Origin: a virus | DNA: 21,458 bases | Direction: 5' to 3' (one strand) | Virus record (IMG/VR): IMGVR_UViG_3300009149_000346 | Coordinates: 1-21,458 of that record | In this document: positions 4,283 to 9,144 of the stretch, one piece after another | How positions within the stretch are numbered: the stretch's first letter is position 1 | Layout: every line of letters starts with the position of its first letter | Program-made: the position numbers and the translations under genes | The notes under the pieces: model-generated | Database searches by the model: none | What the model saw: the letters and a program-made list of their open reading frames with translations, nothing else | Told to the model about the DNA's origin: nothing

Positions 4283-4549
4283 TTACATGGATTCTGCTAT
4301 TTTCATGGCAAGTGCAACACGTTCTTCTTCATTTTTTGGGTGCGGGAAATCATCAGCATTAAAAGAAGGCCCGACAAACCTGTCGACTTCGCTGATCGGG
4401 ATACGGATACGGCCGTTAGGGCCGCGGTTGAACTGTATCCTGCCCTGATTGCAGAGACGCCGGATATAATCGGGGTTGTAATCGACACGCCGGGCAAAAT
4501 TAGTCGGGGAAATCCAGAACTCCCCGCGGAATCTCTTATGCGATGGCAT
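4283..4549 (-). CDS. Small helix-turn-helix DNA-binding protein, excisionase/MerR-like
   Basis: An 88-residue protein. Residues about 12-60 ('WISPTNFARRVDYNPDYIRRLCNQGRI' followed by 'RGPNGRIRIPISEVDRFV') fit the winged helix-turn-helix pattern of the excisionase/HTH_17 group, in which a helix-turn-helix is followed by a short beta wing and a final helix. Such proteins serve as excisionases (recombination directionality factors) or small repressors. The start overlaps the previous gene by 14 bases, with GAAGGA before the ATG. It is separated from the integrase by the repressor region, as in phages where excision is controlled from the early promoter. Excisionase function is plausible but unproven. 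Confidence 0.6.
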   Translation of the reverse strand: MPSHKRFRGEFWISPTNFARRVDYNPDYIRRLCNQGRIQFNRGPNGRIRIPISEVDRFVGPSFNADDFPHPKNEEERVALAMKIAESM

Positions 4550-5166: not shown

Positions 5167-5871
5167 ATGACTAACAATGAATTATTGCAATTATGGATAG
5201 ATTATTTCAAGAAAGAGGCTCATAAAAAGGGGTCTCATTTTTTACAGAAAGAGCTTTCTTATAAATCAGGTGTCGCTGAAAGTTATATTACAAGTTTATT
5301 ATATAATAGAATAAATCTCGGTGAGAAGGTGCTTGATAAAATTGTCAAGGGTCTTGGCATCTCAAAAGCTCAATTCTATGCCGGTCCACCACCTCAGCAA
5401 ATAAAATCGCTTGAAGATTATAAAAACGGTGAGTATATTCCCGGTATAGGCACGGTCACGGAGTATGATCCAACCGACACTATCCCGCTTCTCACCGATA
5501 TACCGGCGGGTCACTGGAAGGACTGGAATAATTCGTATCCGGTCGGCTTCGGGGAGGGGAAAGTTGCAAGGTATGACCTCAAAGGTAAGCATATATTTGC
5601 AATACGTGTCGAGGGTGAAAGTATGCTCCCGGACCTCGAGCCTGGCGATATCCTGATTTTAGACCCTGAGAAAGCTTTTACGAATGTCAAGGGTGGTATA
5701 GGTATTGTTAAGTGTAATGAGGGCTTTCAGATACGCCATGTATATCTCAGAGGTGATAATTACCTGCTGGAGCCGTCAAACAAAGCCTACGAGCCGGAAA
5801 TCGTGCCGGTGACAGGCGCCACGATATTTAAAGTTGTCGAATGGAGACCGAAACGGGAGGGGAAATTTTGA
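5167..5871 (+). CDS. CI/LexA-type phage repressor with S24 peptidase domain
   Basis: The frame starts at TTG 5158, but the ATG at 5167 (MTNNELLQLW, 234 residues) is the likelier start; neither has a clear ribosome binding site. Residues about 5-70 form an N-terminal helix-turn-helix (KELSYKSGVAESYITSLLYN). A linker leads to IPLLTDIPAGHW, holding the Ala114-Gly115 pair used for self-cleavage in this family. Residues 145-225 are the S24 domain: VEGESMLPDLEPGDILILD supplies the catalytic Ser152, and FQIRHVYLRGDNYLLEPSNKAYEP is the second motif. There the usual catalytic Lys is Arg190. It should bind the operators at 5016 and 5098 and keep the early operon silent. Its TGA overlaps the ATG of the next gene. 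Confidence 0.88.
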   Translation: MTNNELLQLWIDYFKKEAHKKGSHFLQKELSYKSGVAESYITSLLYNRINLGEKVLDKIVKGLGISKAQFYAGPPPQQIKSLEDYKNGEYIPGIGTVTEYDPTDTIPLLTDIPAGHWKDWNNSYPVGFGEGKVARYDLKGKHIFAIRVEGESMLPDLEPGDILILDPEKAFTNVKGGIGIVKCNEGFQIRHVYLRGDNYLLEPSNKAYEPEIVPVTGATIFKVVEWRPKREGKF

Positions 5872-6410
5872 TGAGAAAAGCAATCTTGCTAATGATATTT
5901 ATAATTTGTCTATTTAATAACAGTGCAGTATTTTCAAAAGATATTATTACTTTTGAGGATTTGTATAATAAAACAGTACAAATATATTTATTGGATGGTT
6001 CTGTCAGAAAAGGTAAGGTAACATTCAATATTATTGATGAAAAAATGGGTATTGAAACATCTGATGGCAATATATTTATGTTTCAAAAAAAGGAAATTAA
6101 ACGAATTCTTTATCGTCCGCATGAAGATAGTGGAATATCTTTAAGTATTTTAGGTTGTGTCACAATGGGTTTTGCTTATTATTCTATACCACAAGAATCC
6201 TATGAATCTCATAATGGTATAAGAATTTATAACGATGAAGAAAGAGAAGATGCAAAAAAAAGATTTTTGCCTGTGTTTTATACTGGTGCAGGAATTGCAG
6301 TTACGGGAATTTTTTTATATATCTACACAAAAGATTTTCCCATACCTCAAAACAATAATGTTTCTTTTCAAATGCTCAATAATAAATTTATAGTTAGTTG
6401 GAAATTCTAA
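5871..6410 (+). CDS. Exported/membrane protein with Sm-like domain, cotranscribed with the repressor
   Basis: An in-frame GTG/ATG lies further upstream, but the ATG at 5871-5873 follows GGGAGGGG and overlaps the repressor stop as TGATG, giving 179 residues. Residues 1-22 look like a signal peptide (MRKAILLMIFIICLF, possible cleavage after AVFS). Residues about 27-83 (TVQIYLLDGSVRKGKV, then MGIETSDGNIFMFQKKEIKRIL) have the strand order and Gly positions of an Sm/SH3-like barrel. Two hydrophobic segments follow (about 89-105 and 133-152). Expression from the repressor transcript means it would be made in the lysogen, the usual setting of lysogenic conversion genes. The AT-rich composition differs from the repressor gene. 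The Sm-like call is by pattern only. Confidence 0.55.
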   Translation: MRKAILLMIFIICLFNNSAVFSKDIITFEDLYNKTVQIYLLDGSVRKGKVTFNIIDEKMGIETSDGNIFMFQKKEIKRILYRPHEDSGISLSILGCVTMGFAYYSIPQESYESHNGIRIYNDEEREDAKKRFLPVFYTGAGIAVTGIFLYIYTKDFPIPQNNNVSFQMLNNKFIVSWKF

Positions 6411-6419
6411 GCCAAAATA

Positions 6420-6540
6420 AGCTTACAGACCCCCTCACAAAATCGCTGACGATTGCAGGATTATGCCAAATTTTCGAGGATCGGGTGCCGGAACGTGGTA
6501 AGGGATAGCCTGAGAGGTGTAAATAGTTTTACGAGGGAAT
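6420..6540. other. Unexplained GC-richer intergenic patch
   Basis: Between two AT-rich convergent genes lies about 110 bp of clearly higher GC. On the plus strand one frame (from about 6411 to a TAG near 6506) reads like a protein fragment ending DRVPERGKG but has no start codon or ribosome binding site. A small AATCG/CGATT stem lies near 6443-6457, without a T run. It could be a decayed coding remnant or a structured RNA; I cannot decide. Confidence 0.3.
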
Positions 6541-6552
6541 ACGGATAATTAA

Positions 6553-6873
6553 TTATTCATCTTCACATCTTGAATATCTAATGCATTTCAGCCAATCTTC
6601 TAATGGATTATCAAAAGTGAATGAAACAGATATACAAGTTCCAGTTTTTGGTTGTTTGCTTTTTCTTAAAGCTTGAATATCAGATTCTTTAAGAGTATGT
6701 TTTAAAAAACGTGGAAAAAGATAATTATGCACAGCATCAATGAGATTACCAAAAGCTTCATTTTCATCTTTACCCATAACAGAAATATTAAAATCAAGAC
6801 ATGTTGTAACAAAAAATCCATCAGATTTTTTAATTGCTGCAGCGAATTCATAATTGTGTGTGATGGCATTCAT
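6553..6873 (-). CDS. Solitary HicB-like protein
   Basis: A 106-residue protein starting at the ATG at 6871-6873 after CAAAGGAG. Residues about 8-50 ('YEFAAAIKKSDGFFVTTCLD' followed by 'ISVMGKDENEAFGNLIDAVHNYL') match the HicB/UPF0150 fold: a strand that ends in FVTTCLDF, a turn with G-K-D/N-E-A and a helix. HicB proteins neutralise the HicA mRNA-cutting toxin and often regulate their own promoter. No HicA-like partner (short, basic, with a conserved His) is found on either side. It may therefore be an orphan immunity or regulatory protein. No DNA-binding domain is obvious at the C-terminus. It is transcribed from a promoter near 6990 that shares sequence with the early promoter. Confidence 0.6.
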   Translation of the reverse strand: MNAITHNYEFAAAIKKSDGFFVTTCLDFNISVMGKDENEAFGNLIDAVHNYLFPRFLKHTLKESDIQALRKSKQPKTGTCISVSFTFDNPLEDWLKCIRYSRCEDE

Positions 6874-6891: not shown

Positions 6892-6953
6892 AAGGGGCTG
6901 AGCAGGATTCGAACCTGTGGAAATCGGCTTCCCCGTTTTTAATTTCAGCCCTT
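6892..6953 (-). other. tRNA-like element or tRNA/tmRNA 3' remnant
   Basis: On the minus strand AAGGGCTGA pairs with TCAGCCCCTT (one bulged C). Inside, directly before the 3' strand, is a canonical T arm (CAGG-TTCGAAT-CCTG). A small GGAA/TTCC hairpin lies further in. The element is about 62 bases, lacks a D arm, a normal anticodon arm and a CCA, so it is not a full tRNA. A 3' fragment of a class II tRNA, or of a tmRNA, left from an old attachment site is the simplest reading. Confidence 0.45.
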
Positions 6954-6992: not shown

Positions 6993-7006
6993 GTAAAAAG
7001 AGACCC

Positions 7007-7369
7007 ATGCAGAGAAAAATTCCCATTATAATCATCAAAGCCGGTCTCGCAAAGTGTAAATCCTGCGGGTATATCAATGGGAGAGCATGGTTCTACGGGA
7101 ACGCTTCCGGCGACTGCCGTTCTCATTTTCCCCTTGTCTGTGATGAATGCGGTAAGGATGCTGTCTTTAGAATCGAATTCAGCGAACTCACAAGAGAAGA
7201 AAAAACCGACCTCTACCGGAGACTTATCCGGTATGATCACCGCTGCCTCAACTGCGGTTATCAGTTCGTAAAGAGGTCTCCCGATAAACCCTGCCCCAAA
7301 TGCAAATCCACAGAATCATACCGCATTGCCGAAACCTTTGACGATTACGATCCGGAGATTGACGGCTGA
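7007..7369 (+). CDS. Double zinc-ribbon protein preceding the integrase
   Basis: A 120-residue protein with four CxxC pairs: Cys17/20 (CKSC), Cys45/48 (CDEC), Cys80/83 (CLNC) and Cys96/99 (CPKC). Each of the first three is followed by Gly in the zinc-knuckle style, so two zinc ribbons are likely. They are joined by a helical stretch (FSELTREEKTDLYRRLIRYD). The C-terminus is acidic (DDYDPEIDG). Its TGA overlaps the integrase ATG by one base (TGATG), so it is translated together with the integrase. It may be an accessory DNA-binding factor for recombination, but the family is not recognised. Start ATG 7007 has only a weak AAGAGA ahead of it. Confidence 0.65.
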   Translation: MQRKIPIIIIKAGLAKCKSCGYINGRAWFYGNASGDCRSHFPLVCDECGKDAVFRIEFSELTREEKTDLYRRLIRYDHRCLNCGYQFVKRSPDKPCPKCKSTESYRIAETFDDYDPEIDG

Positions 7370-8469
7370 TGAACAAGCCCACCGTATTCAAGCGCTCCGA
7401 TTCTCCCTATTGGTGGTACAGTTGGATTGCAGAGACGAAAGATACACATGGCAACGTCCATAAACGGCGTTTTCGCAAGTCCACCCGCGAATGGGAGCTC
7501 CTTATATCAGATTACCCTCAGAACGAAGCACAGCGCATTGTCATGCTCCGTCTCCACCTTATTGACGAATCGGTCACTCCTGATCAGGCTTCCCTCTCCT
7601 GGCTCAGGGATGAAATAATACTGCGCACAAAAACAGAGGGTCTCCGTCCTTCAACTGTCAAAGAATACCGCATTGCTTGTGATCATCTCATCGAAATGCT
7701 GGGGAGCAGTTTCCCGCTTGCCAAAATTGCCCGCTTTCATGCAAACGAACTGCAGAAACATCTCATCTCCCGCGGTGATACACCGGCAACGGTCAACAAA
7801 GTATGCCGGCACGTAGCAGCTGCCTTCCAGCGTCTTGTTGATGATGAATTCCTCGAAAAGAATCCGTTTAAAAAATATACCCGTCTGCGGGAATCCCCTC
7901 GAGGCCCACGTCATTTAACCCGGGAACAGATCATCAGGCTTTTTGAAATTGTCGATGCTACTGAAAAAGAGGAGTTCAAACATCTTCTCAGAATATCGAT
8001 GTTCACCGGGATCCGCCGGAATGAGGTCCTACTCATCCGGCGTGACGAAATCGACCTTGAACGTGACAGGGTGAAAGTCATGAATGTCAAAATCCATGAT
8101 CAGCGTAAGCGGTGGATTAAAATTCCCGATGCTGCCAGAGAATCCTTTGCATGGTTTTTAAATCACCGGGACGGCGATATGCCTCTCAAAGTCTGTCATC
8201 CCAGTACATATTCCCACTGGGTTAAAACAATGCTCAGGGAAGCCGGCCTGCAGGAAAGCCTTCACTTGCATTCACTCCGTCACAGCTTCATAACACTTGC
8301 CGGTGAAAAGGGAGTTGATCTCTGGCGACTGCAGATGCATGTCGGTCATGCCTCAAGCCGGACGACTGAAGGATATTTTCACCCGGACGCAGATCTCGGG
8401 AAGAGCATCGATATCGGCATCGATTTAAAACGTGACAAAACAGGCAAAAAACGTGACAAAACCCCTTAA
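7369..8469 (+). CDS. int: Phage tyrosine recombinase (integrase)
   Basis: A 366-residue protein. Residues about 1-65 form an N-terminal arm-binding type domain (SPYWWYSWIAE... RRFRKSTR). Residues 75-170 are the core-binding SAM-like domain. The catalytic domain runs from about 180 to 340: Arg216 (TGIRRNEV), the beta-hairpin Lys region (VKIHDQRKRWIKIP), His301-x-x-Arg304 (HSLRHSF), His327 (GHASS) and the nucleophile Tyr336 (EGYFHP). All catalytic residues are present. It cuts and joins attP with the host attB. The C-terminal peptide repeats KRDKT because two copies of the arm-type site CGTGACAAAA lie inside the coding sequence. The attP core stands 95 bases beyond the stop. Confidence 0.95.
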   Translation: MNKPTVFKRSDSPYWWYSWIAETKDTHGNVHKRRFRKSTREWELLISDYPQNEAQRIVMLRLHLIDESVTPDQASLSWLRDEIILRTKTEGLRPSTVKEYRIACDHLIEMLGSSFPLAKIARFHANELQKHLISRGDTPATVNKVCRHVAAAFQRLVDDEFLEKNPFKKYTRLRESPRGPRHLTREQIIRLFEIVDATEKEEFKHLLRISMFTGIRRNEVLLIRRDEIDLERDRVKVMNVKIHDQRKRWIKIPDAARESFAWFLNHRDGDMPLKVCHPSTYSHWVKTMLREAGLQESLHLHSLRHSFITLAGEKGVDLWRLQMHVGHASSRTTEGYFHPDADLGKSIDIGIDLKRDKTGKKRDKTP

Positions 8470-8527
8470 AAGAGTTCACCTTTGTTCAGTATAATTCGTG
8501 ACAAAACGTGTCAAATGACAAAATTAA

Positions 8528-8555
8528 AAGGGCTTGGAATTTCTTCCAAACCCTT
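8528..8555. terminator. Bidirectional terminator hairpin between int and the att core
   Basis: AAGGG-C-TTGGAA, loop TTTC, then TTCCAA-A-CCCTT forms an 11-bp stem with one mismatch. The plus strand continues GATTTTATT and the minus strand TTAATTTT. It can end the integrase transcript, and on the minus strand may be the terminator captured together with the tRNA 3' end. Confidence 0.65.
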
Positions 8556-8563
8556 GATTTTAT

Positions 8564-8613
8564 TGGTAGCGGCGCAGGGATTTGAACCCCGGACAAGCGG
8601 ATTATGATTCCGC
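8564..8613 (-). other. tRNA 3' fragment (anticodon CAT), att core
   Basis: On the minus strand it comprises the anticodon arm GCGGA-ATCATAA-TCCGC (T33, anticodon CAT, A37), variable loop TTGTC, T arm CGGGG-TTCAAAT-CCCTG, acceptor 3' strand CGCCGCT, discriminator A and encoded CCA. The 5' half, which should start AGCGGCG, is absent. Integration would rebuild a host tRNA-Met or tRNA-Ile(CAU). It is not a working gene here. Confidence 0.75.
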
Positions 8614-8615
8614 TC

Positions 8616-8630
8616 TTTGCTTTCAGCAAA
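8616..8630. repeat. Short perfect inverted repeat at the att core
   Basis: TTTGCT-TTC-AGCAAA lies immediately beside the tRNA fragment on the P-arm side. It could be part of the core-type integrase sites or a small hairpin; no T run follows. Confidence 0.4.
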
Positions 8631-8693
8631 CCCTTTATTTATGGGCTTTTCTATTTTTGGTCTGTCACGCTGTTTGTCACGAAATGCCGTTTT

Positions 8694-8906
8694 TCATTCC
8701 CCTTTGTTCACTATACTTCTCATTTTTTGAAACATTTCTTCCGGCTCTTTTTTTAACAACCACAATATTTTTTCAACTGCCCCCGATGGCTTGCGGTTAG
8801 CCTTATAAGAATAATATGTGCTCACTTTAATTCCAACCAGTTTAGAAAAAGCCTTTTTTGTCAGTCCTAATTTGTTCCTGATCGCTTCCATTTCTTTATA
8901 TTTCAT
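8694..8906 (-). CDS. XRE-type helix-turn-helix protein, 70 aa
   Basis: The frame is open from 9011, but the ATG at 8904-8906 follows AGAGGGA and starts the recognisable domain (MKYKEMEAIRNKLGLTKKAF). Residues about 5-55 are a helix-turn-helix: 'IRNKLGLTKKAFSKLVG' then 'KVSTYYSYKANRKPSGAVEKIL'. It is the last gene of a three-gene operon and converges on the integrase across attP. A transcriptional regulator of late genes or of integration is possible; the target cannot be told. Confidence 0.65.
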   Translation of the reverse strand: MKYKEMEAIRNKLGLTKKAFSKLVGIKVSTYYSYKANRKPSGAVEKILWLLKKEPEEMFQKMRSIVNKGE

Positions 8907-8931
8907 CTTATTCCCTCTATTAATAGGACAA

Positions 8932-9144
8932 TTATTTTTTCCTGTAAGTATTATAATTACGCTCAATATTATCCAGTGCATTCGAGATAGCTGAGCGTCT
9001 GTCTGTGCCAATGTCTTTAAATGTAACTCTTACATGCTCCCCTGTTTCTGTGTTGACTACGGTCTGATCAAAGCCAACCTGCCAACCATAAGCATGATGT
9101 TCATCTTTCCAAAAACGCCTTGACGTCGAGATAATTTTTAACAT
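8932..9144 (-). CDS. Hypothetical protein, 70 aa
   Basis: The ATG is preceded by AGGAGG. The product is basic, with a beta-like N-terminal half (MLKIISTSRRFWKDEHHAYG, then VGFDQTVVNTETGEHVRVTF) and a C-terminal helix (SAISNALDNIERNYNTYRKK). No known domain is recognised. It sits between two other small genes, 19 bases after the upstream stop, so it is part of their operon. Confidence 0.55.
   Translation of the reverse strand: MLKIISTSRRFWKDEHHAYGWQVGFDQTVVNTETGEHVRVTFKDIGTDRRSAISNALDNIERNYNTYRKK

Follow-up and report, generated by a model that had tools for sequence, protein, structure and literature searches.

Within the IMG/VR virus record IMGVR_UViG_3300009149_000346, short repeats lie on both sides of a partial tRNA next to an integrase gene. 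This locus raises the question of whether these elements form an intact phage attachment site and, if so, in which form of the DNA it was captured. The window analysed here is the whole record, 21,458 bases long; it is linear and without a terminal repeat. Judging from the sequence, we are highly confident that this locus forms a complete attP, belonging to a temperate siphovirus that would integrate into an elongator tRNA-Met gene by means of a lambda-type tyrosine integrase. The surrounding genes are arranged as follows.

Left part of the window: early genes, for a primosomal protein, an Erf-like annealing protein, a CII-like activator, and an S24 repressor.
4283-4549, minus strand: gene for a small HTH_17 protein (HTH_17, 2.8e-5; PHROG 66 excisionase, 9e-4).
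7369-8469, plus strand: tyrosine integrase gene (int), 366 aa (Pfam Phage_integrase, 3.3e-18; PHROG integrase, 1.4e-41).
8694-9011, minus strand: HTH gene, adjoining the far side of attP.
Right part, minus strand: genes for a small HTH protein, for the M15 endolysin, and for J-like, L-like, and tape-measure tail proteins.
Right part, minus strand: further genes, for major tail proteins, a tail terminator, an HK97-gp10-like protein, and a head-completion protein.

As the original prediction had stated, phage genes are present on both sides of the locus, and no host DNA was recognised among the genes of the window. The int side has repressor, CII, and recombination genes, and the far side has genes for endolysin, tail, and head completion. 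Because terminase and portal genes were not seen in the window, the genome in this record is probably incomplete. Searches of IMG/VR with the integrase, the J protein, and the DUF2460 tail protein returned no relatives. The G+C content of int and the zinc-ribbon gene before it (7000-8470) is ~48-49%, versus 32-37% in both flanks, a contrast that points to separate acquisition of the integration module. The small protein encoded upstream of int (7007-7369, plus strand) has zinc-ribbon-like motifs that score below the Pfam cut-offs, and its stop codon and the start of int overlap at 7369. A tRNA-like remnant (~6893-6951, minus strand), separate from the one at attP, lies just upstream of the minus-strand gene 6553-6873. 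It has an acceptor-like stem of 7 bp (GGGCTGA/TCAGCCC) and a T arm containing GGTTCGAATCC, and lacks a D arm and CCA. This remnant had no match on plasmids; it may derive from a class II tRNA gene, perhaps for Leu, through an internal deletion.

The catalytic set of the integrase is complete, with R216, K241, H301, R304, H327, and Y336 invariant in the alignment, and its catalogued relatives are ~25% identical to it. Alignment also revealed an N-terminal extension of ~75 aa before the SAM-like domain, which is absent from XerC/D-like relatives; this would be the position expected for a putative arm-binding domain. The N-terminal part has no Pfam match, and the predicted structure of the integrase (pLDDT 37.7) is too poor to show such a domain or for its fold matches to be used. 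At the other end of the gene, the last 40 bases hold the first two of the repeats listed below, which encode, in the int reading frame, the integrase tail KRDKT-GK-KRDKT.

8431-8440, plus strand: arm-type site CGTGACAAAA, exact, inside int, encoding RDK of the first KRDKT.
8452-8461, plus strand: arm-type site CGTGACAAAA, exact, inside int, in the second KRDKT.
8497-8506, plus strand: arm-type site CGTGACAAAA, exact, outside int.
8507-8516, plus strand: degenerate arm-type site, two mismatches, weak alone.
8514-8523, plus strand: degenerate arm-type site, two mismatches, weak alone.
8660-8669, minus strand: inverted arm-type site, two mismatches (CGTGACAGAC).
8672-8681, minus strand: inverted arm-type site, one mismatch (CGTGACAAAC).

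The 9-mer CGTGACAAA has four exact copies in the whole window, all inside the 251-bp stretch 8431-8681: three are direct copies on the int side, and one is inverted across the core. None of 5,000 dinucleotide shuffles of 8420-8700 contained four copies of any non-low-complexity 9-mer; low-complexity words were left out of this test, since runs of A otherwise dominate it. The three good and two degenerate copies on the int side and the two inverted copies beyond the core, all part of the original prediction, were confirmed. At up to two mismatches, CGTGACAAAA has 44 matches in the whole window versus ~23 expected, and the two-mismatch arm copies, taken singly, are weak and near background. Arms are present in the sequence on both sides of the core, ~140 bp apart across it. 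No relative with the same arm sites turned up in the searches, nor did the tandem arm pattern at 21-bp spacing in IMG/VR. Within the catalytic region of int (8041-8071), CGTGAC words at 8041 and 8062 are 21 bp apart, like the first two arm sites; they were not counted as arm sites, being probably a coding coincidence (RDE...RDR).

An alignment-based scan returned 80 distant integrase loci, whose ~21-33% identity makes them useful for layout comparison only. Of these, 73 had sufficient DNA downstream for a simple screen, which detected a 9-mer in at least three copies at nine loci and a tRNA T arm at four. Locus L059, in IMG/VR contig IMGVR_UViG_3300037048_000045, has two tandem GTGGTGAGTG copies inside the 3' end of int, a tRNA-Lys 3' half that is convergent with int and cut at the anticodon, an inverted GTGGTGAGTG copy beyond this tRNA half, and phage-like genes on the far side. 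The plan is the same as in the window, whereas the arm sequence differs, the tRNA is tRNA-Lys instead of tRNA-Met, and the two integrases are ~26% identical in the matched part. At locus L044, int contains two repeats and another two lie beyond it. The layouts at these two loci indicate that the attP plan is not peculiar to the window's phage. The far side of L059 also contains an ORF (5628-6452, minus strand) that resembles a reverse transcriptase, with a YCDDF motif recognised by eye.

Two of the three exact CGTGACAAAA copies are coding, the arm sites are predictions, and the neighbouring HTH gene (8694-9011) could have operators. The repeats might therefore be something other than arm sites: KRDKT would be a basic protein tail, and the copies outside int would be due to chance or belong to a regulator. 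However, one exact copy lies outside int and inverted copies lie past the core, all four exact 9-mers fall within 251 bp in a way that shuffles fail to reproduce, and the layout recurs with other letters in L059 and L044. We consider this explanation very improbable and retain arm-type sites as the preferred reading. Because one exact and the inverted copies fall outside the coding sequence, selection would have acted on the DNA, and the KRDKT repeat is most likely a by-product of it, in keeping with the earlier proposal that the arm sites explain the peptide repeat.

Between the arms lies the core, with the following elements.

8564-8613, minus strand: attP core, the 3' 50 nt of elongator tRNA-Met(CAU), from the anticodon stem to CCA.
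8602-8608, minus strand: predicted 7-bp crossover, the anticodon loop ATCATAA, between the half-sites 8609-8613 and 8597-8601.

Read on the minus strand from 8613 to 8564, the core is GCGGA-ATCATAA-TCCGC-TTGTC-CGGGG-TTCAAAT-CCCTG-CGCCGCT-ACCA; in order, these segments are the anticodon arm with CAU, the variable loop, the T arm, the acceptor strand, and CCA. The tRNA half, on the minus strand, converges with int, a point on which the original prediction was silent. Compared with intact tRNA-Met(CAU) genes on alphaproteobacterial plasmids, 43-44 of the 50 core positions are equal, versus 4-6 of the 27 bases preceding the core; the identity therefore ends at the 5' edge of the anticodon stem (8613). 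At this level of identity to intact genes, the tRNA(CAU) 3' half ending in CCA is real. Alphaproteobacterial tRNA-Met genes are its best relatives, and at 86-88% they are too distant for naming the host. Chimeras of the phage half with three bacterial 5' halves were called as tRNA-Met(CAT) by ARAGORN, which found no complete tRNA in the window. Rfam gave sub-threshold matches only; one of these, to tmRNA (8564-8615), was rejected because it is the 3' half of the tRNA. The expected bacterial tRNA gene with the 50-bp core did not appear, as there was no exact match among 84,980 GTDB representatives. A 33-nt part of the core likewise had no exact match among these representatives, and parts of 33 and 24 nt had none in IMG/VR.

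A matching host tRNA was thus not found in the exact scans of the GTDB representatives and IMG/VR, and the phage has a second tRNA-like remnant at ~6893-6951; both would fit a tRNA half that is a degenerate phage-carried tRNA gene or the relic of an old site, with the real core elsewhere. However, the fragment is intact from the anticodon stem to CCA and is placed between two arms, and its break falls exactly at the anticodon stem, as in active sites of the anticodon type. The chance that it is a relic appears to us extremely small. With the tRNA half as the core, the inverted half-sites around the 7-base loop (GCGGA-ATCATAA-TCCGC at 8613-8597, minus strand) make 8602-8608 the likely crossover; the cut positions are predicted from these half-sites and from anticodon-type att sites (PMC4383910).

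The DNA around the core contains further elements.

8547-8559, minus strand: exact IHF consensus match (WATCAANNNNTTR), between the core and the int-side arm.
8627-8639, minus strand: IHF consensus match with one mismatch, between the core and the far arm.
8528-8555, minus strand: 12-bp hairpin with a T-rich tail, a predicted terminator, directly after CCA on the tRNA strand.
8475-8497, plus strand: copy A of a 23-bp direct repeat.
8697-8719, plus strand: copy B of this repeat, overlapping the last codons and the stop of the HTH gene (8694-9011, minus strand).

A 14-nt direct repeat (8547-8560 and 8627-8640) coincides with both IHF consensus matches. The whole window contains three exact WATCAANNNNTTR matches, and 0.03 are expected in the attP stretch. 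We call the two sites IHF-like as consensus matches only. The minus strand of 8518-8562 folds at -19.1 kcal/mol (folding z -5.6), and a terminator scan also flags the hairpin, which is predicted to be a strong terminator for the restored tRNA gene and perhaps also serves int on the opposite strand. The two copies of the 23-bp repeat are identical at 20 of 23 positions and flank the core; none of 1,000 shuffles reached such a repeat. Its orientation is direct, in contrast to the inverted arm sites. It is a possible excisionase or regulator site. A more specific version, in which a phage factor (such as the excisionase or the adjacent HTH protein) recognises the repeat as an accessory site of a second class, with one copy per prophage end, we regard as tentative and rather unlikely. 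The small HTH_17 protein (4283-4549) is a weak candidate only for an excisionase (directionality factor); a terminase small subunit family scores similarly. No Xis or Fis sites were identified at attP.

Together, these elements suggest how the site would work. The integrase would bind to the CGTGACAAAA arm sites through its N-terminal domain, with the DNA bent by IHF-like proteins at 8547-8559 and 8627-8639. Its catalytic domain would then make the cuts that flank the 7-bp anticodon loop, at the predicted position 8602-8608. Strands would be exchanged with the same stretch of a host tRNA-Met gene. The 5' half of the host gene would thereby gain the phage 3' half, CCA, and the terminator on the int side, so that the tRNA survives, and a tRNA fragment would remain at the far end of the prophage. 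Integration would leave int convergent on the restored tRNA, and the hairpin would stop the tRNA transcript short of antisense entry into int.

Integration would separate the two arms, leaving one at each end of the prophage; here they are together, which indicates that the record shows attP in an unintegrated molecule. The original prediction of a virion or circular form stands as the likeliest reading, widened to a virion, circle, or concatemer. It is not the sole one, as tandem prophages or a concatemer give the same junction. If two prophages lay in tandem in a host chromosome, their junction would be identical to attP, and the att anatomy and mechanism would be unchanged. There are precedents for islands in tandem at a single tRNA gene (125 of 3,919 in Islander; PMC4383910), and the record is linear without terminal repeats. 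However, tandems are a small minority, the window is without host DNA, and packaged or excised DNA is the simpler explanation for a viral record. We therefore think a tandem junction improbable and continue to read the record as unintegrated phage DNA.

The site was also compared with published descriptions of known systems. In lambda, IHF sites are interposed between core and arm sites (PMC4880445). As in lambda attP and Int (PMC4880445), the core here lies between two arms with repeated arm-type sites, predicted IHF-like sites fall between core and arms, the (predicted) overlap is 7 bp, the site spans ~240-250 bp, and the core-binding and catalytic domains of the integrase are preceded by an N-terminal extension. 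The differences from lambda are the tRNA gene as target, the placement of two arm sites within the 3' end of int, the convergence of int on the core, and an extra 23-bp direct repeat; in addition, Fis and Xis sites were not identified. Attachment centred on the anticodon accounts for 2,083 of the 3,919 islands in Islander (PMC4383910). The window resembles this type A in that the 3' half on the element would restore the gene and the block of identity starts at the anticodon stem; it differs in that the terminator comes with the element and in that the attB side is predicted from the phage sequence alone. Convergent int-tRNA pairs, the OC shape, make up 438 of 1,273 tRNA-adjacent integrases, and in them the expression of int is uncoupled from the att site (PMC2951348). 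Here, too, int and the tRNA are convergent, and att is at the 3' end of int, away from the int promoter; whereas that survey covered integrated prophages (PMC2951348), the window holds attP before integration or after excision.

This attP is well preserved and ordinary, a site of a known kind, and it challenges no current model. Arm sites embedded in the 3' coding end of int, which also occur in contigs with distant integrases, add a small point on the linkage of attP and int. The window provides a readable pair of integrase and attP for an orphan phage. This attP predicts the 3' half of the host tRNA-Met gene, by which the host would be recognisable once its genome appears.
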